A DNA stretch of 25,606 nt from positions 1 to 25,606 of IMG/VR virus record IMGVR_UViG_3300044638_001343. One strand, 5' to 3'. Position numbers and translations under genes: made by a program. How positions within the stretch are numbered: the stretch's first letter is position 1; every line of letters starts with the position of its first letter. The DNA is from a virus. Under the pieces are notes generated by a model, which made no database searches, was not told where the DNA came from, and was given only the letters and a program-made list of their open reading frames with translations. Positions 9,809-25,172 of this stretch are shown piece after piece.

Positions 9809-10903
9809 ATGGCTTTCCCTAAGAATGGCGTTGTAGAGGCTGGAAAAATTGTGCCCTCCGCTTTTGGCCTACTCGCTGTAATCAAGCCTGAAAACTCTAA
9901 TAACGAAGACATGTGGATTCGTGGATTTTCTCAGGAATATGAGACAACTGTAGACACTCTTACAAATTGGGATGATACTGACACAAGCAGTTACGTATTA
10001 GTAAATAACGCAACAGTTAATTACTACGATGAAATTAAGCCTTTCTTTATTGAACTAGACGAAGTTCGTTCAACTTTAGGTTTCCTTGGTATTGACCGAA
10101 TTGCACGTCTAAAGCGTCAACTTGAGGGAGTAAGTCAAAAATCTATAGAGCGTGAACTTTGGAATGGCGACATTAGAATTGCACAGGGCGATGACAACAA
10201 GGCTTTAGTTAGTAGTAGTGCTACCGTTTTGAATTCTGGAGTTGCACTTTCTTCTAAGCGTGCACTAGCAGTGCTAGAGCACGGAATTGCTATTGCATCT
10301 CACGCAGGTGAGCAAGGAATTATTCACGCAACTCGCGACGTAGTTGCTCTTCTTTCAAGTAACTCAAACATGCTTTTTCACGAAAAAGACAAGGACCACC
10401 TACAAACTATGGGTGGCACTCCAGTAATTGTTGGTTCTGGCTACAGTGGCGATGGTCCTCGTATTGCGGCTGCTACTGCAACTATTAGCGGTAGCACTAC
10501 GCTGACCATCAACACATCTACTCCACACTACTTAATTGCTGGTGATACTGTTCAATATTCTGTTGTTGGAGCAAACATTAACCAGTCTTCTACTTCTACA
10601 GCAGTTGTTACCGCAGCCGACGCTGACACAGTAACAATTACTATTGCAAGTGCCACTAACCGTTCTGAAGAAGCGGTTACTGGTTTTATTCAGCAGTTGG
10701 GAACCAACTCTGCAAAATGGATTTACGGCACAGGAAACGTCCGAGTTTACTTGGGCGACATTGATGTTGTAAACGACAATCTAAGTCAGGCTTATGATGT
10801 GTCGGGTAATGCGAATGACATGCGTATCAAAGCAATCCGCCCTGCAGCGGTTTACTTTGGTACATCCATCCACCTCGCTGTTCGGGTTGACCTAACAGCA
10901 TAA
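9809..10903 (+). CDS. Pentamer-type capsid protein (putative)
   Basis: A 364-residue protein from ATG 9809 with AAGGA (about 9799-9803) upstream. The N-terminus (GVVEAGKIVPSAFGLLAV), the helix RELWNGDIRIA, PVIVGSGYSGDGP and the C-terminal WIYGTGNVRVYLGDIDV through LAVRVDL resemble what actinophage annotations call the capsid pentamer protein. That protein is thought to be an HK97-fold relative that fills the vertices beside the hexamer protein. It directly follows the major capsid gene, as expected. About 70 residues (224-293) between the GYSGDGP loop and WIYGTG look inserted and match the HG/GD beta module seen in the tail genes, though as the most diverged copy. The alternative is a decoration or minor head protein. 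Confidence 0.6.
   Translation: MAFPKNGVVEAGKIVPSAFGLLAVIKPENSNNEDMWIRGFSQEYETTVDTLTNWDDTDTSSYVLVNNATVNYYDEIKPFFIELDEVRSTLGFLGIDRIARLKRQLEGVSQKSIERELWNGDIRIAQGDDNKALVSSSATVLNSGVALSSKRALAVLEHGIAIASHAGEQGIIHATRDVVALLSSNSNMLFHEKDKDHLQTMGGTPVIVGSGYSGDGPRIAAATATISGSTTLTINTSTPHYLIAGDTVQYSVVGANINQSSTSTAVVTAADADTVTITIASATNRSEEAVTGFIQQLGTNSAKWIYGTGNVRVYLGDIDVVNDNLSQAYDVSGNANDMRIKAIRPAAVYFGTSIHLAVRVDLTA
10478..10687 (+). repeat. HG/GD beta module inserted in pentamer-type capsid protein
   Basis: Residues 224-293 (about) of the 9809 product read TLTINTSTPHYLIAGDTVQY, then a Ser/Thr-rich strand and DTVTITIA. This keeps the T.T...PH.l..GD.V skeleton of the tail modules but lacks VDG.Y. It is a weaker match than the tail copies and is assigned by pattern only. 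Confidence 0.45.
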
Positions 10904-10922
10904 CAACTAAGGAGAATAGGTA

Positions 10923-12095
10923 ATGCCTACTCAAGACTATGCAGCAAGCATTCAGGGTGTGTCAATTCGTGTCACTCGTCTAGATGCTGCTGGTAATTTA
11001 CTAAACGGTGCTGGTGACTCATACACCACATCTGCTTTCATGCGTGTTTCATTTACACCAGAATACGAAGAAGGCGAAGAAATCACTGAAAAGGGTGCCA
11101 ACGGTGTAATCTGTGTTTCTTACAAAGCACCAGACACACTAAAACGTATCACTATGGAACTCGCTATCTGTGAGCCAGACCCAGAACTATCTCAACTTCT
11201 ATCTGGCGGTCTCTTGCTTCGCAAGACCGTTAACGGTGAAGTTAAGTCTGTTGGTTGGTCTGCTCCGGGTGTTGGTGACGACCCAGCAGGTAATGGTGTA
11301 GCCATTGAATGTTGGTCACACGCAGTTAAGGGCGGTAAGCGTGCTGCTACACTTCCGTACTTCCACTGGGTATTCCCATACGCCAAGATGCGTCAGTCAG
11401 GTGACCGTGTTATTGAAAACGGTATGCTTGCTAACACATTCGAAGGCTATGGTCTAGGTAACCCTAACTTTGGTGCAGGTCCTGATGGTCGCTGGGAGTT
11501 CCCAGTTGCTGCAGAGCGTCCGTACTCATACGCACGTGCATCTTACGCACCTGTATCACTACAGGGCTTCTACACTTGGTCAGATTCTGCAAACAACACC
11601 CCTGAGTCAGTGTTCTTTACTAAGTCTGGAATCCAAGGTGCTACTTCTCAAACAATTACAAGCATTGTTGCTAACGCTAACATTGCTACTGTGACAATGA
11701 GCAACGTTACTGCTGCTGGTATTGCTAACGATGACTTCATTACAATCAGCGGTGCTGGTGACCTGTTTGACACTCGTACCAACACTGATGGTGTATACAC
11801 CTTCAACAGTGCTGGTGTTGCTGTTTCTAACGTTAATGCAACTACCTTTACCTATGTCACAACTGACAGCGTCGGAGCCACTGCTATAACTGCTACTCTA
11901 GACAAGTTCAGTCGTGTCACAGTGGTTAACCAGGCAACTGAAGCACCTTCTTACTCTGTTGTTACTACCGCTGCTCTAGATACTAAGTACGGTGGAGCAA
12001 CTGCTAACAGTGCAAGTGCTTACAACGTGCCTGGAAGCATCGTTTACAACCCAGACAACAACGTCGACTTCGTAATTCGTTCGAACGAGAGTTAA
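10923..12095 (+). CDS. Probable major tail (tube) protein with C-terminal module
   Basis: A 390-residue protein from ATG 10923 with AAGGAGA at 10909-10915. The N-terminal 230 residues are beta-rich (SAFMRVSFTPEYEEGEEITE, VICVSYKAPDTLKRITMELA, LPYFHWVFPYAK). They resemble actinophage major tail proteins that polymerise into the tail tube. Residues about 249-324 hold an HG/GD-type module ending VSNVNATTFTYVTTD, as expected for a surface add-on of a tube protein. The terminal VDFVIRSNES closes the core. The gene sits before the connector genes rather than just before the chaperones, unusual for a tube gene, so a head decoration role is the main alternative. A strong hairpin follows. Confidence 0.55.
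   Translation: MPTQDYAASIQGVSIRVTRLDAAGNLLNGAGDSYTTSAFMRVSFTPEYEEGEEITEKGANGVICVSYKAPDTLKRITMELAICEPDPELSQLLSGGLLLRKTVNGEVKSVGWSAPGVGDDPAGNGVAIECWSHAVKGGKRAATLPYFHWVFPYAKMRQSGDRVIENGMLANTFEGYGLGNPNFGAGPDGRWEFPVAAERPYSYARASYAPVSLQGFYTWSDSANNTPESVFFTKSGIQGATSQTITSIVANANIATVTMSNVTAAGIANDDFITISGAGDLFDTRTNTDGVYTFNSAGVAVSNVNATTFTYVTTDSVGATAITATLDKFSRVTVVNQATEAPSYSVVTTAALDTKYGGATANSASAYNVPGSIVYNPDNNVDFVIRSNES
11667..11894 (+). repeat. HG/GD beta module in putative tube protein
   Basis: Residues 249-324 of the 10923 product. The copy reads IATVTMSNVTAAGIANDDFI, TISGAGDLFDTRTNTDGVYTF and VSNVNATTFTYVTT. TISG, DGVYTF, VSNVNA and TFTY match the tail-gene copies. The canonical His-Gly is replaced by Ala-Gly. 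Confidence 0.65.
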
Positions 12096-12111
12096 TAACT
12101 GGATTAAGAAA

Positions 12112-12160
12112 GGCGGCGTGTTTTGGTTCTTAAATGTTCCGAAACACGTCGCCTTACTTC
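12112..12160 (+). terminator. Strong hairpin between tube gene and adaptor gene
   Basis: GGCGGCGTGTTTTGG (12112-12126) pairs with CCGAAACACGTCGCC (12139-12153), 15 bp with two G-U pairs and a 12-base loop. TTACTTCTT follows, an imperfect U-rich tail. It fills most of the 83-base gap 12096-12178. It probably acts as a terminator or 3' stabiliser separating highly expressed capsid and tube messages from the connector genes. Confidence 0.7.
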
Positions 12161-12178
12161 TTACTTAAGGATTTATAA

Positions 12179-13285
12179 ATGACAGCACTTTGGATTCAAC
12201 CAGAAGAACTCGGCGACTACGCTAATACTGAGTTTGCACAAGAGGCTGCTCAGACTGCGTCTTATTTACTGTGGGCTATGTCTGGTCGTAAATTCTCTGG
12301 CGTAACAACTGTTACAGAACGTTATACCTGTGTGCTTCGTCGTGGACGTATGGGTGACTCTGTTCGTACTACTGACGCTCTACTGTTTAACGGTAGCGTC
12401 TATAACATTCCAAAATCAGATTTTGATTTTGATGAATACTCTTCTTTAACTGTAGATGGTATTTCTCCTGAATCACGTATTAAATTGCGTGGTGGCCCTG
12501 TGACAGAAATCCACTCTATTCGTAACAGACTAGGTGAAGTTCTAGACCCTTCCTACTATTACTTAGTAGACCACTCAACTGTGCAAATTTCGGTTGGTGC
12601 TCCTTGGACTCCTTGTAATACTGAAATCACTTATTCTTACGGTGCTCCACCTCCAACTTCTGGAAAAATGGCTGCTCGTACACTAGCCATCGAGTTGGCT
12701 AAGTTGTGGAATGACGAAGATTGTGCCTTGCCACAGCGTATTACTTCTGTATCTCGTCAGGGTGTCTCTTACACAATTCTTGATAGTCAAGACTTTATTG
12801 ATGACGTTCGTACTGGTCTGTACGCAATTGATTTGTTCCTTAAGACTGCAAACCCTGACAAAGCACGTGCTAAGGCTAAAGTGTTCTCAGTTGACGCTCC
12901 TAGAGGACGCCGCTACAATCCAAAGGCTTCGGTTTATACAGCCAATGTGTCTAAAGACATTACGGTAAATGCAGGTGCAACTTCTACTGGTTCTGTGACT
13001 TTAGGGCTTTCTAACATAAACGCAACTTTTCTTACGTCACAGGCTGGTTGGACTCCAAGCCTTACAGCCAAGAGTTACTCAGGTCTATACTCTAAAGACT
13101 TAGGTGCTTCCTCAGCCACAGTAAATACAAATGCTTCTACAATAACTCTCACGATTGGCTACAATGATGCCAACAATGTCTTGGGAAGAATTGACCCTGG
13201 GTCTTGGGATTTGTACGCAACTCACACAAATAGCAGCGTTGTCTTGATTACTAGCGGAAACCTAAAAATCAACACAGTCATATAG
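12179..13285 (+). CDS. Head-to-tail adaptor with C-terminal beta extension
   Basis: A 368-residue protein from ATG 12179 with AAGGA at 12168-12172. Residues 1-248 carry motifs I associate with actinophage head-to-tail adaptors: LLWAMSGRKFSGVTTVTERY, GKMAARTLAIELAKLWNDED, CALPQRITSVSRQGVSYTIL and PDKARAKAKVF. Such proteins form the ring under the portal that joins head and tail. Residues about 250-368 are an extra Thr/Ser/Asn-rich beta segment (TLTIGYNDANNVLGRIDPGS, WDLYATHTNSSVVLITSGNL). I do not expect this in the family. It looks like an Ig/BppU-like surface domain rather than the HG/GD module. Confidence 0.75.
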   Translation: MTALWIQPEELGDYANTEFAQEAAQTASYLLWAMSGRKFSGVTTVTERYTCVLRRGRMGDSVRTTDALLFNGSVYNIPKSDFDFDEYSSLTVDGISPESRIKLRGGPVTEIHSIRNRLGEVLDPSYYYLVDHSTVQISVGAPWTPCNTEITYSYGAPPPTSGKMAARTLAIELAKLWNDEDCALPQRITSVSRQGVSYTILDSQDFIDDVRTGLYAIDLFLKTANPDKARAKAKVFSVDAPRGRRYNPKASVYTANVSKDITVNAGATSTGSVTLGLSNINATFLTSQAGWTPSLTAKSYSGLYSKDLGASSATVNTNASTITLTIGYNDANNVLGRIDPGSWDLYATHTNSSVVLITSGNLKINTVI

Positions 13286-13299
13286 TTTTACAATAGAAA
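13286..13299 (+). promoter_or_regulatory. AT-rich motif TTTTACAATAGAAA after adaptor gene
   Basis: Begins at the base following the adaptor stop codon. It contains TACAAT, close to a sigma-70 -10 box, and shares TTTTA...GAAACATA with the gap at 22838-22856 and CAATAGAAA with 7613-7621. It may be a promoter or regulator site for the small genes that follow. No convincing -35 box is visible, so confidence is low. Confidence 0.25.
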
Positions 13300-13327
13300 C
13301 ATATCCATTACTAGAGAAAGTCAAAAA

Positions 13328-13549
13328 ATGGCACACATTCAGACAAACTTCACCGCTGCGTCTATGAACACAGGCAAGAAGGTAGAAGCAACAGTAGCCC
13401 CTAAAAAGGTAGAAAAGCCAGTTAAAAAAGAGAAGCCAGTTGTAGTCGAAGAGGTAGTAGTCGAGACTCCAGTTGTAGTAGAAGACGTAGCCGTTGAGGC
13501 TCCTGTCGTCGAAGAGACTGTAACACCAGCAGAGCCTGAAGCAGAGTAA
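13328..13549 (+). CDS. Small V/E/K/P-rich low-complexity protein
   Basis: A 73-residue protein from ATG 13328 with GAGAAAG at 13314-13320. Residues 1-20 look ordinary (HIQTNFTAASMNTGKKVEA). A basic KKVEKPVKKEKP block follows, then repeated acidic VVVEEVVVETPVVVED units. It is almost certainly disordered. The V/E block has a roughly 8-10 residue periodicity. It sits between the adaptor and the next connector and ends two bases before that ATG. Function is unknown. Such a charged tether could be an assembly factor or linker. Confidence 0.7.
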   Translation: MAHIQTNFTAASMNTGKKVEATVAPKKVEKPVKKEKPVVVEEVVVETPVVVEDVAVEAPVVEETVTPAEPEAE

Positions 13550-13551
13550 GT

Positions 13552-14058
13552 ATGGCACAGCCTCTAGTAACAGCAAATTTTACTGAAGAGGCTCTCCGTC
13601 TAAAAGTAATGATGGACGGCATACTCGAAAGAGTAGAGTCAGTCTTTCAGTCTTACAACGTTCCGCTCCCTAACCGACGTTACTGGAACATCGGACAGCC
13701 ACCAGTTGATTGCGACCAAGTAGTAGTGTCTTTTATGGGCATGTACTTAGGTTCGCCCGGTGATGAAGTAGCACAACCTCAGCGTTGTAACGTACCTAGA
13801 AGTGCGACAGTTGCTATCAGCATCTCTCGTGAAATCCCTACTGTGGGTCAAAGCGGTAGACCACCTTCTGGAACCAAAATTCAGGAAAGCAGTGAGATAT
13901 CTGTAGTTGACGCTTGGATTCTTATGGAATCTTTGCGTGAATTTGACATGTGGGATGACACTGGTTACGGCCTTGGTATTGTTGCAACACTTGAAATTGG
14001 TGAGCCTGAAGGTGGATTTGTTACCTCAGTACTCAACGTTGTGATGGCAGTTCCTTAA
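13552..14058 (+). CDS. Head-tail connector or tail terminator protein
   Basis: A 168-residue protein from ATG 13552, two bases after the previous stop and probably translationally coupled. Motifs NRRYWNIGQPPVDCDQVVVS, MYLGSPGDE, QRCNVPRSATVAISISRE and VTSVLNVVMAVP resemble a family in the neck/tail-terminator slot of actinophages. The length and position fit a protein that caps the tail tube and joins it to the neck. I cannot separate tail terminator from head-closure protein by sequence alone. Confidence 0.6.
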   Translation: MAQPLVTANFTEEALRLKVMMDGILERVESVFQSYNVPLPNRRYWNIGQPPVDCDQVVVSFMGMYLGSPGDEVAQPQRCNVPRSATVAISISREIPTVGQSGRPPSGTKIQESSEISVVDAWILMESLREFDMWDDTGYGLGIVATLEIGEPEGGFVTSVLNVVMAVP

Positions 14059-14059
14059 A

Positions 14060-14719
14060 ATGCCTTACGGTTTAAAAGATAGTTGGATTCTTTGGGGTGG
14101 CCGTAAGGTTGCCAGAGCAGGTAGAGGTAGACGTCCACCAAAACCGCCTAAATTATCTCCTATCAAAATTGGTGGTAGAGGTAGAACTTCTACTAAAACT
14201 GTATACACATATAAATTTAGCCACATGTCTTGGGATAGACATGCTGTAAGTTACTATCGTGAATTTCACACCATAGATGGTTATCTATGGAAGTACTTAG
14301 ATAAGCAAGGTGAGTTAGCAACTAAAGCGGCCAAAAACCGTATGCGTAAGATGCCTCAGAAACCTTGGCGTACTGGACGTCTGGCTAAATCTATCCACAA
14401 AAAACATCTTGGATATTTAAACACCAAAGGTCAATATTTAATGGTCGGTTCTTGGACTGTGCCATACGCTCTCATGGTACATAGGGGCACTAAGCCACAC
14501 ACCATCACTCCAAAGGGTGACAATCAACTTGTCTTTATGGGTAGAGGTGGCGGTAAGAGTGGTAGCCGTTTAAGGCTAGTTAGGACTAACTTAGTCAACC
14601 ACCCAGGGACTAAAAGAAATAGATACCTCTACGACCAACTTAAGTTTTTTAGAGGTGCTGGTAGGACTCCTATGTACACTCCTAAGCCCGGACAGCGTTC
14701 TAGGTACGGTATTAAATAA
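14060..14719 (+). CDS. HK97 gp10-like neck/tail completion protein
   Basis: A 219-residue, very basic protein from ATG 14060, one base after the previous stop. The first 50 residues are rich in Arg/Lys/Gly/Pro. The central part has AKNRMRKMPQKPWRTGRLAK and VPYALMVHRGTKPHTITPKG. The later HPGTKRNRYLYDQL matches the HPGTKPN-like signature of HK97 gp10-type proteins, which act at the head-tail joint. The basic N-terminus may contact DNA or the acidic proteins around it. Confidence 0.6.
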   Translation: MPYGLKDSWILWGGRKVARAGRGRRPPKPPKLSPIKIGGRGRTSTKTVYTYKFSHMSWDRHAVSYYREFHTIDGYLWKYLDKQGELATKAAKNRMRKMPQKPWRTGRLAKSIHKKHLGYLNTKGQYLMVGSWTVPYALMVHRGTKPHTITPKGDNQLVFMGRGGGKSGSRLRLVRTNLVNHPGTKRNRYLYDQLKFFRGAGRTPMYTPKPGQRSRYGIK

Positions 14720-14745
14720 ATCACTCTTTTTTATACATAGTAAAA

Positions 14746-14775
14746 TTGACTATGGATGCATACCGTATCTAATAA
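14746..14775 (+). promoter_or_regulatory. Candidate sigma-70-like promoter before chaperone genes
   Basis: TTGACT (14746-14751) and TAATAA (14770-14775) are 18 bases apart, 33 bases before the chaperone ATG. The -35 overlaps a CATAGT-AAAATTG-ACTATG inverted repeat (14736-14754) that could be an operator. The 88-base gap 14720-14807 contains no gene. This is pattern evidence only. Confidence 0.35.
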
Positions 14776-14807
14776 CTCACGACAACACGAGAAAGAACTA
14801 AAAACAA

Positions 14808-15149
14808 ATGACTGCTAGATTCAAAGATTTTGGCCGTGGAAATGACAAGAACGTTTCTGACCAGCCTCTAACCTTTAAACTATTCGACCAAGAGTTCCAC
14901 TGCTACCCACGTATGCAGGGTAAGGCTCTACTTGAGTTTGTTGAGATGGCAAACTCTGAAAACGCTTCTGACACTGCAAAGGTTACAAGAGTCTTCTTTA
15001 AGAAGGTGCTAAAGCCAGAGAGTTACACAAAGTTTGACGCTCTACTTGATGACCCAGACAAGATTGTTTCAGTTGAAACATTGGCTGAAATTACTGGATG
15101 GCTACTAGAACAATATGGTGACCGCCCGGAAGAGCAACCAGAAGTCTAA
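14808..15149 (+). CDS. Tail assembly chaperone, short form (lambda G-like)
   Basis: A 113-residue protein from ATG 14808. Just ahead of the tape measure, small acidic-to-neutral proteins of this type help the tape measure fold and the tail polymerise. Visible pieces are QPLTFKLFDQEFHCYP, GKALLEFVEMAN and ITGWLLEQYGDRPEE. The gene ends at TAA 15147-15149, inside a stem-loop that follows the slippery heptamer at 15125-15131. A share of ribosomes is therefore predicted to shift -1 and make a longer form, as in lambda G/GT. Confidence 0.8.
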   Translation: MTARFKDFGRGNDKNVSDQPLTFKLFDQEFHCYPRMQGKALLEFVEMANSENASDTAKVTRVFFKKVLKPESYTKFDALLDDPDKIVSVETLAEITGWLLEQYGDRPEEQPEV

Positions 15150-15172
15150 TAACTTGGGCGTTAGACCTCTGG
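15125..15172 (+). other. Predicted -1 programmed frameshift site with stem-loop
   Basis: Heptamer C-CCG-GAA (15125-15131) in the chaperone frame, then a 6-base spacer, then a stem-loop. The stem CCAGAAGTCTAA (15138-15149) pairs with TTAGACCTCTGG (15161-15172) at 11 of 12 positions, with an 11-base loop. Slipping re-pairs Pro CCG on CCC, while Glu GAA on GGA mismatches at the middle base, so the heptamer is not fully canonical. The -1 frame is closed by TGA at 15119-15121 and open from 15122 to 15526, which confines the shift to 15122-15149. Confidence 0.75.
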
Positions 15173-15529
15173 TATTACGTAAACGGTAAAGCCTTGATGA
15201 GCCAAGTTAAATTGGCAGAAATGGATGCAGCGGACATGCTTGACGTTATCCATTACATATATGAGGAAGATATTAATTACGTTTCTCAAGAGCAAGCACA
15301 GATGGTAGAAACTCGCAGAGTTGCTATTTGGAAAAGTATGTACAACGCTCCATACAGGTACACAGTTTTTCAAAAAAGCAATGAGTTTGATGTAGAAGAA
15401 ACTGAAGACTTTAAAGCGTTTGACCCTACTCAAAGAAGTAATGTAAAACCTTATTTTCCACCTACTGACTTTAGTGCAGATGATAGTGACCCGTTTGGTG
15501 GAGTCTTAGACGCACCTATTGGTGGCTAG
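15128..15529 (+). CDS. Tail assembly chaperone, frameshift extension (lambda T-like)
   Basis: This frame is -1 relative to the chaperone gene and is open from 15122. Across the junction it reads GRATRSLITWALDLWYYVNG, then KALMSQVKLAEMDAADMLDV and IHYIYEED. This matches the second part of actinophage frameshifted chaperones. TTG 15194 and ATG 15197 lack a Shine-Dalgarno, and homology-like sequence begins before them, so separate initiation is unlikely. With the shift after Pro CCG at 15126-15128 the fused product is about 240 residues (107 + 133). It would bring the tape measure and tube protein together during tail assembly. The C-terminus (AFDPTQRSNVKPYFPPTDFS) is acidic and Pro-rich. Confidence 0.78.
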   Translation, partial: GRATRSLITWALDLWYYVNGKALMSQVKLAEMDAADMLDVIHYIYEEDINYVSQEQAQMVETRRVAIWKSMYNAPYRYTVFQKSNEFDVEETEDFKAFDPTQRSNVKPYFPPTDFSADDSDPFGGVLDAPIGG

Positions 15530-15553
15530 GAAAATAATTAAGAGTGGATAGTT

Positions 15554-15569
15554 AGGAGGTGAGAATGTG
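15554..15569 (+). promoter_or_regulatory. Tape measure ribosome site with competing ATG/GTG
   Basis: AGGAGG (15554-15559) serves GTG at 15567, seven bases away. An out-of-frame ATG at 15565 overlaps this GTG and opens a three-codon ORF (Met-Trp-Gln-stop) ending at 15576. The GTG is the right start because only its frame continues. The ATG may compete and lower tape measure synthesis. Confidence 0.6.
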
Positions 15570-18500: not shown

Positions 18501-19523
18501 GCTCAGCAATTCCTAGCAAATAAATTAAAGAACGCTGCGGCTTCGTTTATTGATGTAAACGCTCCTCTAGAGAAGTTCACTAAAAAGGGTGTAGTAGACC
18601 TTAAGGGTTATCAAGGTGAGTTAGACAAGCAACTTACGGTTCAGGTAGATTGGTTTGACAATCTACAAAAAGTACAGGCTAAGGGTATCAAGGGCAGTAC
18701 TTATAAAGCACTTATTGACATGGGTAAAGAAGGTGCAAATTTAGTTTCAACTCTTGCAAGTTCAAGTGTGAAAGATGTCAAAACTTGGGAAAAAACTTTT
18801 AATGCAGTAATTCCTGACACTACTGCTGGTCTTGCAAGTGCCTTAACCGACCCTGAAACTCTTTTTAGTATTATAAGAACAAGGCGTGGTGCAAAAAGAA
18901 GCACTGACATATATATAAAAAGTTTAAAAGATAGTTTAGATGCTGGAAAAACTACCATTGGTAAAATTATGCAGGAGCAAAGCATTACGGTTGCAGATAT
19001 TATGCAAGGACTGGCTGACGCAAAACCTATCAAACAAAAAGTTGAATGGGATGGCGACTCAATTACAAAACTCCAAGAAAAACTTGCCGAAGAAATGGGT
19101 AAGACTACTCTAACAGTGACTGCTACTACAAAAAATAAAGACGGCGGACTTATTAAATTTGCTAATGGTGGGTTCGCTAAATTTGCTAACGGTGGAAATG
19201 TATTGAAGAAATTTGCTCCGGGTGGTCAAGTATTTGGTCAAGGCGGTCCTCGCTCAGACAAGATTCCAGCCATGCTTTCCAACGGAGAGTATGTTGTGAA
19301 CGCTGCGGCTACTGCTCGCACGCTACCATTACTTAATGCTATTAACTACGGAGTTACTCAAAGAAATGGTGACGCTGGCACGATGGTCGGTGGAGGTGGA
19401 GGTTCTCTAATGAACTCCGTAAACATCACCGTAAACCCTGCTCCTGGAATGGATGAAGCAGAACTTGCCGCCATGGTTGGCCGTGAACTTTCTGCTCAGA
19501 TGCGAAGAGGGGCGATGTCGTAA
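15567..19523 (+). CDS. Tape measure protein
   Basis: A 1318-residue protein from GTG 15567, the longest tail gene, placed right after the chaperones. It runs inside the tail tube and sets its length. At about 1.5 angstrom per residue it predicts a tail near 200 nm. Features: hydrophobic segment at residues 78-115 (SALIGALGALSGTLVGAATS), Glu/Ala/Arg coiled coil at 143-222, hydrophobic segments near 561-595 and 732-766 (LWPIIAIAALVAGGIAAISL), and a 42-residue internal repeat near 629-675. A Gly-rich FANGG repeat follows near 1197-1225. Then comes GGPRSDKIPAMLSNGEYVVN from residue 1226, a tail-end signature common in phage tape measures. No lysozyme or peptidase motif is evident. The stop overlaps the next ATG by one base. 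Confidence 0.92.
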   Translation: MAVVGEAYILVRAITTEIKKDIANGFDGVKGQSTKEGKSAGNAFGQGFGDTMRDQATQSARAFFQLMRRGYSVQAGIGAALTSVSALIGALGALSGTLVGAATSGIALVGVMAQLKVASMVGKMAFKGITQAIQDTGTVGTKSLRELREEMQQLAFDAEEAALSEESAALKLENARETLARVQDLPPNNRARREAELAFKQAELAYRRARDKNNDLQEELANPKKAAANAGPDPMAQLTKSQVAFAQYLRAVKPRMKELTEAAASSFLPELTKQMKVLFDSGYFDMLVRGFEDVSKGLGKAVSEFAGTMFDPSNRANLSAFFESTGRTLGTMGRVVGNFFGYFMTLMKAADPLIGRLVHFLDRKVFSLGDASKKNFGQLNAFFKNAGDSAADFGRLLSNIFQPFKRLVMSQVGPGSAGREFLDWMKQSSESLREFKMGADGLTLNEKLLPMVENTQAIFRAFSGLGKALFDIGRDPGVKEFWTILGQGTSSVQSILQNIVTATGPAFARVIVAILQILQEFSDGAQLEAYFDALAEIFTVFAQIASALGDVMRLFGPMTGVIGALVTGFLLLKKAGMLVVGAFGILRGGIVSLTALSYKQIIAQRIQIAVQKQKNIADTLSLALSKKTLTAKGLETIAEYRNVVANNANLTASKKKQMLSALDAVASGKKLTAKQAETIAEIQNTAAKNANIAAQKTQIVQSLAAAKAGDTVTASIARQGIAAAGAKVPVTLFGIALNSALWPIIAIAALVAGGIAAISLAIGKQNDKMKQASSDTQKELKKLTDANVSSSQRSAYAQGVWTAALSSTGTAANSSISDINKLGAQTKLLGKLQKDGIADWIPLAQAGIDIGKYVPFLQFVRLIPTPMQALIKTQNNYQEGLKNLGSALGSIAKVNMKQAQRGFTMLANEMYDHSLSQEQNLEQLRAQIQAQPAFTEQLKETAEKYALVNDAMTEQEKIAVYTDIALTRGAYAAIKAGEAQQFLANKLKNAAASFIDVNAPLEKFTKKGVVDLKGYQGELDKQLTVQVDWFDNLQKVQAKGIKGSTYKALIDMGKEGANLVSTLASSSVKDVKTWEKTFNAVIPDTTAGLASALTDPETLFSIIRTRRGAKRSTDIYIKSLKDSLDAGKTTIGKIMQEQSITVADIMQGLADAKPIKQKVEWDGDSITKLQEKLAEEMGKTTLTVTATTKNKDGGLIKFANGGFAKFANGGNVLKKFAPGGQVFGQGGPRSDKIPAMLSNGEYVVNAAATARTLPLLNAINYGVTQRNGDAGTMVGGGGGSLMNSVNITVNPAPGMDEAELAAMVGRELSAQMRRGAMS
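17451..17675 (+). repeat. Tandem 42-residue repeat inside tape measure
   Basis: LTAKGLETIAEYRNVVANNA recurs 42 residues later as LTAKQAETIAEIQNTAAKNA (from 17577). Both are followed by N-[LI]-x-A-x-K. The shared skeleton LTAK..ETIAE..N..A.NAN..A.K.Q is helical. It probably arose by in-frame duplication, one way tail length can change. Confidence 0.65.
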
Positions 19524-22500
19524 TGGTACAAACTCCAGACCAAGGCCAAGAAAATGCAATTGTCAATAGAGCCTTAACTAAGGTCCCAAGACCGCATATT
19601 ACTGGAGCCGTTCTAGGCAAGGATATAAAACTTGGAGACCTACAACTTAACGCTATTGACGACAACGACGTTGTGTGGGTCTGCACTGACATCGAGGGCT
19701 GGTGGAATCTCCCAGACGTCGAGGTTCAGGATTTAGATAAAGGTTGGGGCGACGGAAGTTACAACTCCAAAGGACGTTATCGTTCTAGGATTTTGACACT
19801 TGAGGGCGTAATTCTGCCACCAGACGCTAGCAAAGTCACTGTTGCTAGAGATACTTTGGTTCAAGCAATAAACCTAATTAGGACTACTGCATGGCTAGTT
19901 GTTAACGAGGCTGACTACACTAAGGCTGTAAAGGTACGTATAAGTGGTAAGCCTAGAATTGACAACGTTAATGCTCGTGGTCGAATTCAATTTTCTATTG
20001 GTCTAGTCGCTGTAGACCCTATCAAGTACCAGTGGTTTGGAGATAGTCTAACTACTGACTACGCTGAAACTCAACCAAAAAATGCTACTGGAACTCAAGA
20101 CGGCTACGTCACAATCAATAACAAGGGTAACTATCCTGTCGGTGCCGTCTATGAAATAGAAGGTCCGATTGTTAGCGGAGACGCTACTATTTTTAACCAA
20201 ACAAATGGCGATTTACTTTCAATCATTGACTCGACTCGTGGGAAGATGTATCGCTACGCAAACGCTAAATCTATGGCTAACGGTACATCCACTCTTACTG
20301 TAACTACTAAGCACGATTTGACCGAGGGCGATGAAGTAGAAATAACTCTTCCGCAAAACTTTGGAGTTACTAACTTTGTTGTGTCCAGTTTGGTGGCAAC
20401 ATTTACCACAAACGCAACCCACAACTTCGCTATCGGTGATGTTTTTGCTGTATCAAACGTCCACGCTAACGTAGATGGCGTAGAACTGACTGTAGCCTCT
20501 ACACCTGCCCACAACACATTTACTGCTACTACATCTTCTGGAAATATAACTAGCACTGCTGTCACTGGAACTGTTGAAAATATAACCAACAAAAAACTTA
20601 ACGGAACTTTCCCTGTTGCTAGCGTAGTAAATAACTTTGCGTTTACCTACACAACAATTTATAATGATTCGATAACTAACGTTGCTCAGACGTTTGCCAA
20701 CTCTGTACCTACGGTTTTTAGAGACGCAGACATTCTTGAGATTGATACTTCAAACAGAGAAGTTGCGTTTAACGGAGATGGTTCTCAAAAACGTGGAATG
20801 CTAGATGCCATAGTTGATTGGGTGTCCCTCAGTAAAGGCAACAACATAGTTCAGTTTGATGACAGCGGTGCCCCTACTTCTTGGATTTACAGATACAAAA
20901 CTGTAGCAAACGCTACTGCCGACACAGTAACTCTTTACACAACTAATGCTCACGGCTACAGCACTAGCGACTCGGTCACAATTAGCAATGTCTCTAGCAA
21001 CGTCAACACTGATTTGTCTAAGCCTATTGTTACTTATGTTAGTACTGCAAACGTAGTCACTGCTCGTGTAAATTCTCACGGATACACTACTGGAAATCAC
21101 GTTGTTGTGTCTGGAATAGATAAGACCGTAGATGGACTATACGCAGTAACAAATGTAAATGCCAACTTTATATCTTTTACGACCACTAGCAGCGGTAACT
21201 CTTATACAACTAACGCACCAGAAGGTGCTACGGCTAGAAAAGTTTCTAAGGTCTATGACTACAGTAGAACTGCAAACGTTGTGACTGTAAATGCAACTGC
21301 TCACGGTTTTTACTCTAACGAATACGTATTTTTCACTGGTCTAAGTAACGTAGTTGATGGCTTGTACATTGTTACTAACGTAGATGCTAATACTATGACT
21401 TATGTAACTAGGTCTACTGGCAACGTCGCTAGTACTAACACTGCTAATGGGTATGCTGCTGTTAGATATCAACTGGCTGACGAAGACGACTACAAGATTG
21501 TATTCACTAAGAGACCTGCAACTGTCAACGTTTCAGAGGTCGGTATTGGTGCAATTGCTTCTACCGATAACGTAGGAGAAATTGGCGTTTACTCTATTTC
21601 AACCAATCCTACAACTAATTTAGTAACTCTAACTACTAACGGCGAGCACGGATTCCAACCAAACGACCACGTGCAAATTATTTCCGAAGACACTTCTTCT
21701 TCTGCTGTAAATATGTACGCTGTTGCAACTGGAACTCCAGTTAGAATCAATAACTGGGAACGTGCCAGCAATGGTAGAGTCACTCTAAATTCAACAAATG
21801 TTTTTAATTACGTATCTTTTTCTGCTAATAACTACGTAACTGTTAGTAACGTTGATAGTTCTGTAGATGGTACTTATCAACTTATTAGTGCTTCTTTGGC
21901 AAGCAATGTGTATACAGTAACTTTTGATAGTTCAAACACAAACTCTGTATCAACTACTGTGGTAGACAATGCTTACATGAAGCGTCTACACAAAGTAATC
22001 TATTTCACTAGAAATGATGGAACTGCTGTTAACTCGGCTACTATAGGAAACTCTGTGTCAGTAGCATTTGATTCTCCGCATGGACTGTTGACTGGAGAAT
22101 CTCTTGCCTTGTATGGACTAAGTTCTTCTGTAGACGGAGTTCGACAAATATCTAACGTCAATGCTGACGTTGTTCGCTACACCGTAGATAGCACCGCTTT
22201 AAGACAATCTAGAGCAAGCACAAACGTTAGAAGAACTAGCCCTAATAACATAGTCACTGTAGTTACCTCTACTAATCACGGATTCACCGTTGGAGATTCT
22301 ATATATGTTGTCGGTGCTGGTGCAGTAGGGGACCTAGACGGCCAATGGGTAATGTACTCAAACATCAATGCTACTGCTTTTACTTACGTTTCTGGTGCTA
22401 ACACAAACGCAAACATTACAACTACTACTCGTGTACATCAAAGCCTAGTAGACACTTACGCTGAAGAAGTTTATCCGATAGTTAGTAAGACAAATACTAC

Positions 22501-22834
22501 TTTTACTTACTTCCATCCAAATCTGAGAGTCTTTAACGCCTCTGGCACGGCTTCTGCTGGAAACACAACCATAACTGGAACTACTACTAACAGTGAGTTC
22601 TATGTTGGAAGAATTGTAGAACGTAACTCTGGAGCAGCAATGGCTAACTCATTTATTACAAGTGTGATAAACGCTACTGCTTTCACGGTCAATACTGCTC
22701 CCACTGGTAGCGGTTCCATAAACTACTCTCTTATGGGGTCAAGCAACCTTGTTTTAGCAAATACTCCTGGAGAAATAGTAAGGAACAGCGACGGCACCAT
22801 GCGTGTCTACTTCAGGTCTGGCTGGATAGGTTAA
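19523..22834 (+). CDS. Distal tail (Dit-like) minor tail protein carrying an array of beta modules
   Basis: A 1103-residue protein whose ATG overlaps the tape measure stop by one base. Residues 1-250 look like an actinophage distal tail protein, which forms the ring joining tube and tip (WVCTDIEGWWNLPDVEVQDL, YRSRILTLEGVILPP, GRIQFSIGLVAVDPIKYQWF). Core pieces reappear at about 400-447 (ADILEIDTSNREVAFNGDGS, KGNNIVQFDD) and at the end (1088-1103, MRVYFRSGWIG). Everything between is inserted: residues 254-380 and 460-1070 hold about nine HG/GD modules and one different beta repeat. Subtracting these leaves a core near 330-350 residues, close to the usual Dit size. The arms would project from the tail tip and may bind the host surface. 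That role is inference. Confidence 0.75.
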   Translation: MVQTPDQGQENAIVNRALTKVPRPHITGAVLGKDIKLGDLQLNAIDDNDVVWVCTDIEGWWNLPDVEVQDLDKGWGDGSYNSKGRYRSRILTLEGVILPPDASKVTVARDTLVQAINLIRTTAWLVVNEADYTKAVKVRISGKPRIDNVNARGRIQFSIGLVAVDPIKYQWFGDSLTTDYAETQPKNATGTQDGYVTINNKGNYPVGAVYEIEGPIVSGDATIFNQTNGDLLSIIDSTRGKMYRYANAKSMANGTSTLTVTTKHDLTEGDEVEITLPQNFGVTNFVVSSLVATFTTNATHNFAIGDVFAVSNVHANVDGVELTVASTPAHNTFTATTSSGNITSTAVTGTVENITNKKLNGTFPVASVVNNFAFTYTTIYNDSITNVAQTFANSVPTVFRDADILEIDTSNREVAFNGDGSQKRGMLDAIVDWVSLSKGNNIVQFDDSGAPTSWIYRYKTVANATADTVTLYTTNAHGYSTSDSVTISNVSSNVNTDLSKPIVTYVSTANVVTARVNSHGYTTGNHVVVSGIDKTVDGLYAVTNVNANFISFTTTSSGNSYTTNAPEGATARKVSKVYDYSRTANVVTVNATAHGFYSNEYVFFTGLSNVVDGLYIVTNVDANTMTYVTRSTGNVASTNTANGYAAVRYQLADEDDYKIVFTKRPATVNVSEVGIGAIASTDNVGEIGVYSISTNPTTNLVTLTTNGEHGFQPNDHVQIISEDTSSSAVNMYAVATGTPVRINNWERASNGRVTLNSTNVFNYVSFSANNYVTVSNVDSSVDGTYQLISASLASNVYTVTFDSSNTNSVSTTVVDNAYMKRLHKVIYFTRNDGTAVNSATIGNSVSVAFDSPHGLLTGESLALYGLSSSVDGVRQISNVNADVVRYTVDSTALRQSRASTNVRRTSPNNIVTVVTSTNHGFTVGDSIYVVGAGAVGDLDGQWVMYSNINATAFTYVSGANTNANITTTTRVHQSLVDTYAEEVYPIVSKTNTTFTYFHPNLRVFNASGTASAGNTTITGTTTNSEFYVGRIVERNSGAAMANSFITSVINATAFTVNTAPTGSGSINYSLMGSSNLVLANTPGEIVRNSDGTMRVYFRSGWIG
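20282..22432 (+). repeat. Array of about nine HG/GD beta modules in the distal tail protein
   Basis: Approximate residues: 256-280 plus 354-378 (one copy split by the copy at 290-342), 466-506 (front half only), 508-560, 584-634, 699-735 (degenerate), 750-805, 842-898 and 908-970. The common pattern is NVVTVTT..HGF..GD.V.ISG....VDG.Y.VTNV.A.TFTY...GN. Copies at 508 and 584 are about 48 percent identical (25 of 52, counted by hand), so the array is not a recent perfect duplication. The pattern recalls the E1 FCCH domain that databases sometimes report in phage proteins. This needs a profile search. Confidence 0.75.
22562..22702 (+). repeat. Different beta repeat near the end of the distal tail protein
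   Basis: Residues about 1014-1060 read TTITGTTTNSEFYVGRIVER and SFITSVINATAFTVNTAP. The T.FY.VG..I....G...I.SV...T.FTV pattern differs from the HG/GD modules. It resembles a small beta repeat seen in phage minor tail proteins (VGD-I ... V..I.SDT.L.V). Single copy here. Confidence 0.45.
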
Positions 22835-22880
22835 ACTTTTAATAATGAAACATAGACGCTTTTAGGAAAGAATATAAGAC

Positions 22881-25172
22881 ATGGCAACAAGCGACACTGT
22901 GTCATACAAATACATCCTGACTAATTTACTTACAAATGAAGTAATAGCAGAGGTGCCTTTTGTCGACGTCAATTATTCAAGAGCAATTAAATCTGCTGGA
23001 AGTTTTTCTGGAAAAATAGCAGTAACGGACGACACCTCTTACTTAAATCTTTATGAGACAACTATGCCAGCAAAAACTGGCTTATACGTAATGAGAAACG
23101 ATTCTTGCGTTTGGGGTGGAATTCTTTGGAGCAGAGATTACAACGTTAAGGAAAGACAACTAACTGTTAAAGGGTTAGAGTTCACAAGTTACTTTGCCCA
23201 CAGAAAAATTTGGAAGACTTACACAAATTCATTTTCTGCAAAGTTAGTTGTTCCTAATGAAATTGGTGCAGATTGTACTGTAACTCTTTCTAATGATACT
23301 TTTGGTTTTGAGGCTGGAAGTGACGTATACATATCTTTTACTGGCGATTACATAAACCTAAGCAGTTTCTTTAAAATTGGAAATAACCCGACTACTGAAT
23401 CTTTTCAAATAAACCCTGCTGAACGTTCTTATATTATAAATAGCGTTTCTTTGAAAAAGGGCGTTTTCACTTTTAAAACTAAAACTAACCATGGATTGTC
23501 AATTGGTGACCAAGTCACAGTTAGCGGAATTAAGTTAGATAATAAAAAATACCCTGCTGCTCAAACCAGAATGAATGCCACTCAAACTGTTACAAAAGTA
23601 CCTACCAACAATTCTTTTACAGCAAAAACTGATGTTGACCAAGCATTGAAAGTCGACAACGTTAAGCAAAACGCTAGGGCTACTTTTAATGGGTCTTTGC
23701 CACCCGGAACTTACACGGTAACTGTTACTTGTTCTCTAGATAGTTACGAGTTTGCTAGAAGAATGATTGACGCTATTGCCACTGATTTTACTGGCACGGG
23801 ATACCCTAACTCCGCTATTGAGCCTGGAATCTCATACGCTGTTGATGTAGATGGAGTAGGTAGACAAGCCAACATTGTAACTATAACAACATCAGAGCCT
23901 CACGAACTTTATCAAGGGCAAGAATTTACTATCAGTAGCCTATCTTCTGACATCAACGGTAAGCACTCTGTCTTAGAAATTATTGACGACACCACTGCCA
24001 CTTTTTTCTCTGAAGGAGAAGCCTTCCCATTTAAATCCACATCTAGTAGGGATGTTTACGTTCAAAGTCGTTTTAGAAGAAACAGAGTAATTACCTACAC
24101 CACTGCTACTGCACACAGTTTTGAAGCAGGAGACTACGTAACAATATCTGGAGTTGCTAGTACAAAGCAATTAATAAAAGAAGACAAAAAAGACCCAAAA
24201 AACAATACATATGAGTATTACAACTACAAAGGTGTATTTAGGGTTATTGACGCACCTACCTCAAAAACTTTTGGCGTTAAAGCACCAGAACAAAAAGTAG
24301 ACAGCAAAAAATCAGAACCTATTACTCCAAATGGTTTAGCGTCTGCTCAGCCGACGCTTAAAGTTGGTTCTTATGGGCCGTTTGTAAATAATGCCGACAT
24401 TGGAATTACTTTTGAAGAGGAATTTTCTGGGATAAATAAGGCACCTAGTTTAATTAGAGGTGACCAAATGCAAACGCTTGATAAAGTTTTAGATACCTAC
24501 TCCGACGATATTGACGGTTTTGACTATCGTATTGATTGTGATTATGACCCCGAAAGCAAAAGTTTTAAAAGAGTTTTTAAATTTATCCCTAGACAATTTC
24601 CTGACCCGCCTATAAATGGAGAAGTATCTCCAATTAGTAGATTTGGTGCAGATAAAGTTGTATTCGAGTTTCCCGGAAATATTAGTGGAGTACAACTTCA
24701 AGAAAATGCTGAAAACGCTGCTACTAGATTCTTTACTATCGGCTCCAAGGAGGGTCTAGGGGATGCGGCCTTTGCACCGCACGCTGCGGCTGCGGCACAA
24801 GACTTGCTAGATGACAACTGGCTACTACTAGATGAAGACGAAAAAGTAGATTCAGAAAATAACGAAAGCGTTCTCTATCAGTGGGCTGAGAGGTACTTGT
24901 ACGAAAGCAGACCTCCAATGGGTGAAATTTCTATATCTGTAAACGGAAGCATTGACCCTGTTATTGGGAGTTACTATCCGGGTGACTGGTGCTCAGTAAT
25001 TATTGACGACGACTTTATTAGACAGCGTTTGGCCAGTGGGCTAGAGCCTAGAGATGATATAATTGTTAGGAAGATTGTTGGCTACAGTGTGAAAGTAAAA
25101 GATGCTTTAGGTGTGCCAGAAGAAGTTTCTTTGACATTAGTACCTGATTGGGAGGTGGACACCTTTGCCTAG
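22881..25172 (+). CDS. Tail hub/Gp37-like minor tail protein with inserted modules
   Basis: A 763-residue protein from ATG 22881 with AGGAAAG (about 22864-22870) upstream. The N-terminus (ILTNLLTNEVIAEVPFVDVN, AGSFSGKIAVTDD, GLYVMRNDSCVWGGILWSRD) and the C-terminal half (FEEEFSGINKAPSLIRGDQM, LLDDNWLLLDEDE, SYYPGDWCSVIIDDDF, LTLVPDWEVD) resemble siphoviral ReqiPepy6 Gp37-like/hub proteins that close the tail tip. Core sequence is interrupted at about residues 130-265 and 329-490 by HG/GD modules (192-252, 329-380, 400-470). CSLDSYEFARRMIDAIATDF between them is core. Ala-rich FAPHAAAAAQDL (631-642) lies near the end. The protein probably contacts the Dit-like ring and carries receptor-binding parts. 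The next gene starts inside its last codons. Confidence 0.72.
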   Translation: MATSDTVSYKYILTNLLTNEVIAEVPFVDVNYSRAIKSAGSFSGKIAVTDDTSYLNLYETTMPAKTGLYVMRNDSCVWGGILWSRDYNVKERQLTVKGLEFTSYFAHRKIWKTYTNSFSAKLVVPNEIGADCTVTLSNDTFGFEAGSDVYISFTGDYINLSSFFKIGNNPTTESFQINPAERSYIINSVSLKKGVFTFKTKTNHGLSIGDQVTVSGIKLDNKKYPAAQTRMNATQTVTKVPTNNSFTAKTDVDQALKVDNVKQNARATFNGSLPPGTYTVTVTCSLDSYEFARRMIDAIATDFTGTGYPNSAIEPGISYAVDVDGVGRQANIVTITTSEPHELYQGQEFTISSLSSDINGKHSVLEIIDDTTATFFSEGEAFPFKSTSSRDVYVQSRFRRNRVITYTTATAHSFEAGDYVTISGVASTKQLIKEDKKDPKNNTYEYYNYKGVFRVIDAPTSKTFGVKAPEQKVDSKKSEPITPNGLASAQPTLKVGSYGPFVNNADIGITFEEEFSGINKAPSLIRGDQMQTLDKVLDTYSDDIDGFDYRIDCDYDPESKSFKRVFKFIPRQFPDPPINGEVSPISRFGADKVVFEFPGNISGVQLQENAENAATRFFTIGSKEGLGDAAFAPHAAAAAQDLLDDNWLLLDEDEKVDSENNESVLYQWAERYLYESRPPMGEISISVNGSIDPVIGSYYPGDWCSVIIDDDFIRQRLASGLEPRDDIIVRKIVGYSVKVKDALGVPEEVSLTLVPDWEVDTFA
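23454..23636 (+). repeat. HG/GD module 1 in tail hub protein
   Basis: Residues 192-252: GVFTFKTKTNHGLSIGDQVT, VSGIKLDN, TVTKVPTNNSFTAKT. It keeps NHG..IGD.V.VSG and the closing NSFTA. A stretch NDTFGFEAGSDVYISFTGD just upstream (residues 138-156) may be a degenerate extra copy. Confidence 0.65.
23865..24020 (+). repeat. HG/GD module 2 in tail hub protein
   Basis: Residues 329-380: NIVTITTSEPHELYQGQEFT, ISSLSSDINGKHSVLEIIDD and TATFFSEGE. NIVTITT, PH, ISSL, D-NG and the closing TATF follow the array pattern. Confidence 0.68.
24078..24290 (+). repeat. HG/GD module 3 in tail hub protein
   Basis: Residues 400-470: RVITYTTATAHSFEAGDYVT, ISGVAST, then GVFRVIDAPTSKTFGVKAPE. A Lys/Asp/Asn/Tyr-rich loop of about 20 residues (KEDKKDPKNNTYEYY) is inserted between the GD.V.ISG half and the closing half. 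Confidence 0.68.
25151..25167 (+). promoter_or_regulatory. Ribosome site for the last gene, inside the hub gene
   Basis: GGAGGT (25151-25156), eight bases before TTG 25165, lies in the coding end of the hub gene. It decides the start of the last gene: the frame from TTG 25165 runs open to the window end, and no ATG start exists near it. Confidence 0.6.

Follow-up and report, generated by a model that had tools for sequence, protein, structure and literature searches.

Immunoglobulin-like (Ig-like) and fibronectin type III (FN3) accessory domains are optional additions to head and tail proteins of many phages, and an adhesion role has been proposed for them. Two other barrels of virion proteins bear on the locus described here. 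The endosialidase barrel holds a polysialic-acid binding site that is a host-discrimination hotspot in phage K1F (PMC12632334), and the I-domain of P22-type coats (residues 222-345 of P22 gp5) carries a D-loop (residues 239-254) that makes inter-subunit contacts (PMC9965877). Shuffling of protein domains is known in phages, and the recent events on record concern mainly receptor-binding proteins and endolysins (PMC10684548). Here we analyse a 25,606-nt stretch of viral DNA (IMG/VR record IMGVR_UViG_3300044638_001343, positions 1 to 25,606; hereafter the window), in which one small beta-barrel module recurs in a head protein termed PEN, the tail tube, the distal tail protein (Dit) and the tail hub. 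The domain family itself has been described before, and annotation already places it in phage tails; what is new is its use in all four proteins of one virion, with cassette swapping in the head protein, for which we found no description in the open literature that we searched.

Module copies in the window

A sequence-only reading of the window had reported one pattern in about fourteen copies across four structural genes, assigned to the capsid, tube, distal tail and hub, and both the gene calls and the pattern proved to be as described. The host proteins, with the evidence for their identities, are the following.

9809-10903, + strand: PEN, second HK97-fold head protein (phrog_779), 364 residues, hosting one module (phrog match, AlphaFold2 model, Foldseek)
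10923-12095, + strand: tail tube (major tail) protein, 390 residues (phrog_792, 9e-22)
19523-22834, + strand: Dit protein, 1103 residues (PF22768 SPP1_Dit, 1.6e-9; PF16190, 1.6e-8)
22881-25172, + strand: tail hub or tail-associated protein, 763 residues (phrog_1885, 6.6e-27; Foldseek matches to tail lysin and gp27/Tal-type hubs, best 1e-6)

At a domain E value below 0.01, 13 copies were listed (PEN 1, tube 1, Dit 8, hub 3), three of them partial. One further weak candidate at Dit residues 744-818 brings the tally close to the earlier count; it came from the first seed set only, and was dropped as a certain copy because the refined profile gave nothing below 0.01 there. The most conserved module positions are T, H, GD, N/D-G and V/I. 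All copies lie on the same strand as their genes:

10460-10714, + strand: module insert in the A-domain loop of PEN, residues 218-302 (profile domain 229-281); tail-trained profile 22.3 bits, reached by 0/200 shuffles; predicted local distance difference test score (pLDDT) 91-95
11676-11870, + strand: tube module, C-terminal part, residues 252-316; E 0.003 for the window copy, down to 2e-21 among orthologues
20279-20347, + strand: outer Dit module, left half, residues 253-275, split by the inner copy (profile; counted as partial)
20384-20542, + strand: inner Dit module, residues 288-340, nested inside the outer one; E 7e-10
20579-20677, + strand: outer Dit module, right half, residues 353-385 (flank-joining comparison)
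20918-21010, + strand: partial Dit module, residues 466-496; E 8e-6
21044-21193, + strand: Dit module, residues 508-557; E 4e-10
21269-21418, + strand: Dit module, residues 583-632; E 2e-10
21614-21724, + strand: partial Dit module, residues 698-734; E 5e-4
21752-21976, + strand: the weak Dit candidate, residues 744-818
22046-22195, + strand: Dit module, residues 842-891; E 4e-8
22244-22393, + strand: Dit module, residues 908-957; E 4e-15
23460-23630, + strand: hub module 1, residues 194-250; E 3e-9; no confident fold in the model
23868-24017, + strand: hub module 2, residues 330-379; E 8e-15; modelled as barrel strands
24081-24272, + strand: hub module 3, residues 401-464; E 2e-11; Pfam E1_FCCH 1.4e-5

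Homology of the head and tail copies

The profile, a hidden Markov model (HMM), was seeded with nine copies from Dit and hub and retrained over three rounds on copies from these two proteins alone; no head or tube sequence was used for training. This tail-trained profile matched all 27 of the 27 PEN inserts longer than 40 residues (median 22.3 bits, lowest 10.8), while 5,400 shuffles gave a 99.9th percentile of 10.0 bits and a maximum of 17.1. In the window, the PEN insert and the tube copy (16.8 bits) each scored above all 200 of their own shuffles, and about 75 tubes were matched by the tail-tip-only HMM. Five shuffled copies of 1,313 proteins yielded no match below 0.01 (lowest 0.54), and neither did 86 orthologues of the major capsid protein (MCP) and 85 of the tape measure protein (TMP) give a single match to the tail-trained profile. 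The reverse search, with a profile of PEN inserts only, retrieved tubes (1e-10), Dit (5e-7), hub (2e-7) and one head-tail adaptor (2e-6), MCP and TMP again being without matches. Two PEN inserts, those of L087 and L096, are near tail copies, and that of L096 is 57% identical to the module of tube L044 over 70 residues (E 3e-18). The window tube copy is among the weakest of its family, and its membership is accepted because orthologues score far higher at the same place.

Low-complexity convergence, in which beta repeats rich in Thr, Val and Asn would score against each other without common descent, has in its favour the biased composition, the 15-25% identity or so of most module pairs and the weakness of the window tube copy when taken alone. 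However, shuffles of the same composition fail to score, MCP and TMP give no matches, intermediates join head and tube at the identity just quoted, and structure searches from the head and from the hub arrive at the same fold family; we rejected convergence on the shuffles and the MCP and TMP negatives, and consider it highly improbable. With profiles matching in both directions and close pairs such as L096/L044, a shared ancestry of head and tail copies is well supported. The earlier suggestion of one module shared between capsid and tail tip is thereby upheld: homologous copies occur in head, tube, Dit and hub, and significant profile matches between capsid or tube copies and tail copies were obtained both ways.

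Among about 74 major capsid proteins, one (L028) carries at residues ~345-430 a Thr-rich insert of about 80 residues in a loop, and the others are without it. A BLAST match of this insert to the module (4e-5, without composition correction) was confirmed by neither profile, and we treat it only as a lead.

Fold and superfamily

The module belongs to a known superfamily, covered in Pfam by E1_FCCH (PF16190) and End_beta_barrel (PF12195). An earlier hint at E1_FCCH was right: against a curated cut-off of 29.5 bits, Dit scored 34.9 and the hub 32.7 bits as whole proteins. The Pfam scan left PEN and tube proteins unmatched when each was taken alone; single-sequence annotation therefore misses these modules. 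Searching the PDB with a profile of 42 modules placed the phi92 and K1F endosialidases on top; the P22 and CUS-3 I-domains came next, and E1 enzymes ranked lower. In addition, 7 of the 42 module copies matched PF12195 (best 1.6e-4).

Structures were modelled for PEN (AlphaFold2) and the hub, and both models were used for Foldseek searches. The PEN model, of the protein first read as a pentamer-type capsid, has an HK97-type fold, with the module as a separate, confidently predicted six-strand element. Its best PDB matches are the Sf6, P22 and CUS-3 coats (7e-9 to 2e-6), all other HK97 folds scoring lower; in these matches, for which the aligned residues were not printed, the module presumably pairs with the coat I-domain. 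In BFVD the PEN model also matched phage fibres, a baseplate wedge protein and a protein annotated as a carbohydrate-binding module (CBM) over 149-180 columns, which would correspond to the module plus its flanks only. Overall quality of the hub model is low (pLDDT 65.6) and module 1 is left unfolded, so modules 2 and 3 alone serve as structural evidence. The hub, which has no HK97 fold, independently matched human UBA1 (6.5e-4), P22 coats (5e-3), endosialidases (1e-2) and tail hubs, and searches from head and hub thus reach the same fold family. Among sequenced phages, similar modules have been annotated in fibres and gp7 wedge proteins of cyanophages, and also in Yersinia, Klebsiella and Pantoea phages.

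Cassette exchange in the head protein

PEN orthologues fall into two length classes, of 286-310 residues without and 359-380 residues with a module of about 75 residues; one module-bearing PEN of 325 residues (L081) starts at a contig end and is incomplete. There is a single insertion site, always between GSGYSGNGP and KWIYATG in orthologues. The window insert is flanked by GYSGDGP and KWIYGTG and is absent from 291-residue orthologues. On a tree of 78 PEN cores, computed with insert columns removed, presence of the module changed state nine times, at least eight of which are forced by supported branches. Module and core also vary separately: L088 and L090 have 96% identical modules on cores of 72% identity, and their DNA identity rises from 53-66% before the insert to 90-96% inside it, whereas modules of only 39% and 24% identity sit on cores of 86% (L088 and L122) and 81% (L033 and L063). 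Because close relatives swap modules and DNA identity jumps at the insert edges, we take the insert to be a cassette moved by recombination. Orthologues without the module are common, and hence the module is unnecessary for head assembly.

These observations bear on the main rival to the adhesion role proposed below, a purely structural role, whereby the modules would be spacers or staples: the head copy would serve folding, inter-capsomer contacts and shell stability like the P22 I-domain, the tail copies would make the tube and the distal tail thicker or stiffer, and adhesion would have no part. Such a role is favoured by the P22-type coats leading the PDB matches of the PEN model, by the reach of the tail-trained profile to the P22 and CUS-3 I-domains, and by insertion into the same A-domain region as in P22 gp5 (residues 222-345, PMC9965877). 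Against this, at least eight gains or losses separate close relatives and the shell assembles without the module; the long P22 D-loop, with its inter-subunit salt bridges, has no counterpart in the PEN insert by sequence comparison; and up to nine repeats occur in Dit, where a capsid role is inapplicable. Since relatives lose the module and the D-loop is missing, we regard a structural role as unlikely.

Copy number and nesting in the tail

Copy number varies among the tail proteins. Most tube orthologues have a single module, the highest count being four, and the tubes of DSL-LC01, Mimi and Sixama have none; the module is kept in nearly all of the ~80 tube orthologues retrieved, a retrieval that favoured long matches. 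Counts run from none (in a Dit of ~300 residues) to nine in Dit and from one to five in the hub, and one adaptor among the retrieved loci also bears a module (L062, residues 328-380). In DSL-LC01, one intact module (59.1 bits) lies within the Dit domain. Its window counterpart is split by the nested inner copy: the two halves score 23.1 and 14.9 bits on their own, and joining the flanks raises this to 31.7 bits. The other window Dit copies precede a final strand, RVYFRSGWIG in the window and RLFYRSGWLG in DSL-LC01.

Gain, loss, replacement, nested insertion and half-copies, together with large differences in copy number among relatives, could also mark the module as a selfish or neutral passenger, that is, a short repeat spread by homologous recombination through permissive loops with little effect on fitness. 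Nevertheless, the modules are in frame and folded, core residues are conserved over 252 distinct copies, and the tube copy is retained as just described, with the same bias of retrieval. We judge a mere passenger to be quite improbable.

Two further features of the tail genes were noted. A second repeat type, NTTI..T..G..VG......NTTI..V.NATAFTV, lies at 22538-22732 (Dit residues 1006-1070); it was found only in tubes (10 copies) and in the window Dit and does not overlap the main module. Tandem pairs of tube genes, with near-identical cores and different C-terminal cargo, occur in L079, L077, L081, L082, L084, L085 and near-copies; in L079 a tube of 376 residues with one module is followed by one of 519 residues with the second repeat type. 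Tubes may possibly be mixed from two subunits in such phages.

A proposed role in adhesion

The best explanation, to which we give a probability of about 0.6, is that the module is a dispensable, surface-displayed adhesion domain in the role ascribed to phage Ig-like domains. It would be an independently folding beta-barrel of 55-85 residues from the E1-FCCH/endosialidase-barrel superfamily, used by this lineage as an accessory domain displayed at loops or ends of several virion proteins: in the A-domain loop of PEN, the C-terminal part of the tube, two sites in Dit, loops of the hub and, in some relatives, the head-tail adaptor. The copies, presumably facing outward, would make many weak contacts of low specificity with glycans of the host surface or the environment, and these contacts may help the particle to dwell on the host before receptor engagement, as proposed for Ig-like domains. 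We infer adhesion because the domain is repeated on presumably exposed parts of the virion, optional in the shell and related to a polysialic-acid-binding barrel; sugar binding by the modules is suggested by analogy with the endosialidase barrel, their closest relative with a known function.

Several points weigh against this proposal. The position equivalent to K1F Ser468 is Asn or Asp in 93% of modules and Ser in about 1%, and polysialic-acid specificity is therefore not transferable to the modules; simple transfer of function is likewise disfavoured at the Ser460 equivalent, which is Ser in 34% of modules. The most conserved module positions look structural; the comparable domain of P22 works in folding and capsid contacts and not in adhesion, which means that the copy in the head could be structural too; and the pattern of gain and loss also fits neutral or selfish spread. 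Natural PEN pairs with and without the module, differing by one cassette, make accessory-domain function directly testable.

Genomic setting and neighbouring genes

The window (43% G+C) is 99.9% identical to an IMG/VR contig and can be read as a block of head and tail genes from a siphovirus. The source is a freshwater actinobacterial phage, its nearest sequenced relatives being Actinomycetia phage DSL-LC01, from a lake, and large Microbacterium, Arthrobacter and Gordonia phages. Genes are ordered protease, MCP, PEN, tube, adaptor, chaperone region, tape measure, Dit and hub.

At the start of the block, directly ahead of the head genes, 63-1412 encodes a P-loop protein of the Zeta_toxin family (PF06414, 7.6e-14). 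A 1748-residue protein is encoded at 2358-7604, with a weak match to the Peptidase_S78 prohead protease, in which the motif NAEKLRRYW..GKGAAKIRW...RC.KYLSKY.G...KGYC.LRHK is duplicated at about residues 727 and 877. The head-tail adaptor (12179-13285) has an additional C-terminal beta-rich domain (residues 245-368), shared with DSL-LC01 and metagenomic relatives and absent from the Microbacterium, Arthrobacter and Gordonia relatives.

Comparison with known systems

The ubiquitin-activating enzymes share the fold, as the hub model aligned with UBA1 (6dc6_C, probability 1.00) over 187 columns, the aligned residues not being printed. Unlike E1 FCCH domains, the modules stand without ubiquitin chemistry, their sequence match to E1 structures is weak (0.1-0.75), and the phage copies are tandem, nested and mobile. 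Closer is the endosialidase barrel of K1F, phi92 and CUS-3, likewise an accessory barrel in a virion protein, which shares the motif HGL..GD.V.FS and gave the best PDB profile match (phi92, 4hiz, 6e-7; K1F, 1v0e, 1e-3); it is present there as a single copy in a catalytic tailspike.

Like the PEN module, the P22-type I-domain (P22, CUS-3, Sf6) is a beta-barrel that interrupts the A-domain of an HK97-fold protein. It comprises 124 residues with D- and S-loops and is fixed in the main coat protein, whereas the PEN insert has about 75 residues, is optional and sits in a second head protein. Module and I-domain are probably homologous, the profile matches to I-domains standing at PDB E 0.0027-0.011, at 0.0024 and 0.0042 with the tail-only HMM (Z=1000) and at a probability of 46% in hhalign. 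Near-identical sequences were all that a scan meant to collect diverse P22 coats yielded. We do not claim PEN as an orthologue of the P22 coat, for in hhalign the alignment of the whole head protein had no significant match to P22 coats over the full length. Phage CUS-3 (L146) has a related barrel in both its coat protein, as the I-domain, and its endosialidase tailspike, a possible second case of one module in head and tail; given CUS-3, such a distribution may extend beyond the lineage studied here. On a tentative view, which we rate at somewhat less than even odds, P22-type I-domains, endosialidase barrels, the FCCH domains of fibres and baseplates and those of eukaryotic E1 would form one mobile barrel family that phages shift among their head and tail genes as an interchangeable unit of surface display, the P22 I-domain being a domesticated tail adhesion module. 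We found no paper in the open literature linking E1-FCCH or endosialidase barrels to coat I-domains; the link, if true, would give that well-studied domain an evolutionary origin.

With respect to Ig-like domains, no Ig-family profile (Big_2, I-set and similar) matched the window proteins, and one stray Big_11 match (0.03) appeared among the 42 modules. The idea that a non-Ig domain has here taken over their spreading role was borne out, the module being gained, lost and swapped in PEN and ranging from 0-1 to 4-9 copies in tail proteins. Like Ig-like domains it is optional and mobile; unlike them it belongs to another fold family, and this one family, nested in places, occurs in four or more gene products of a single virion. 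Ig-like folds are thus not alone in spreading as an accessory domain through a whole virion.

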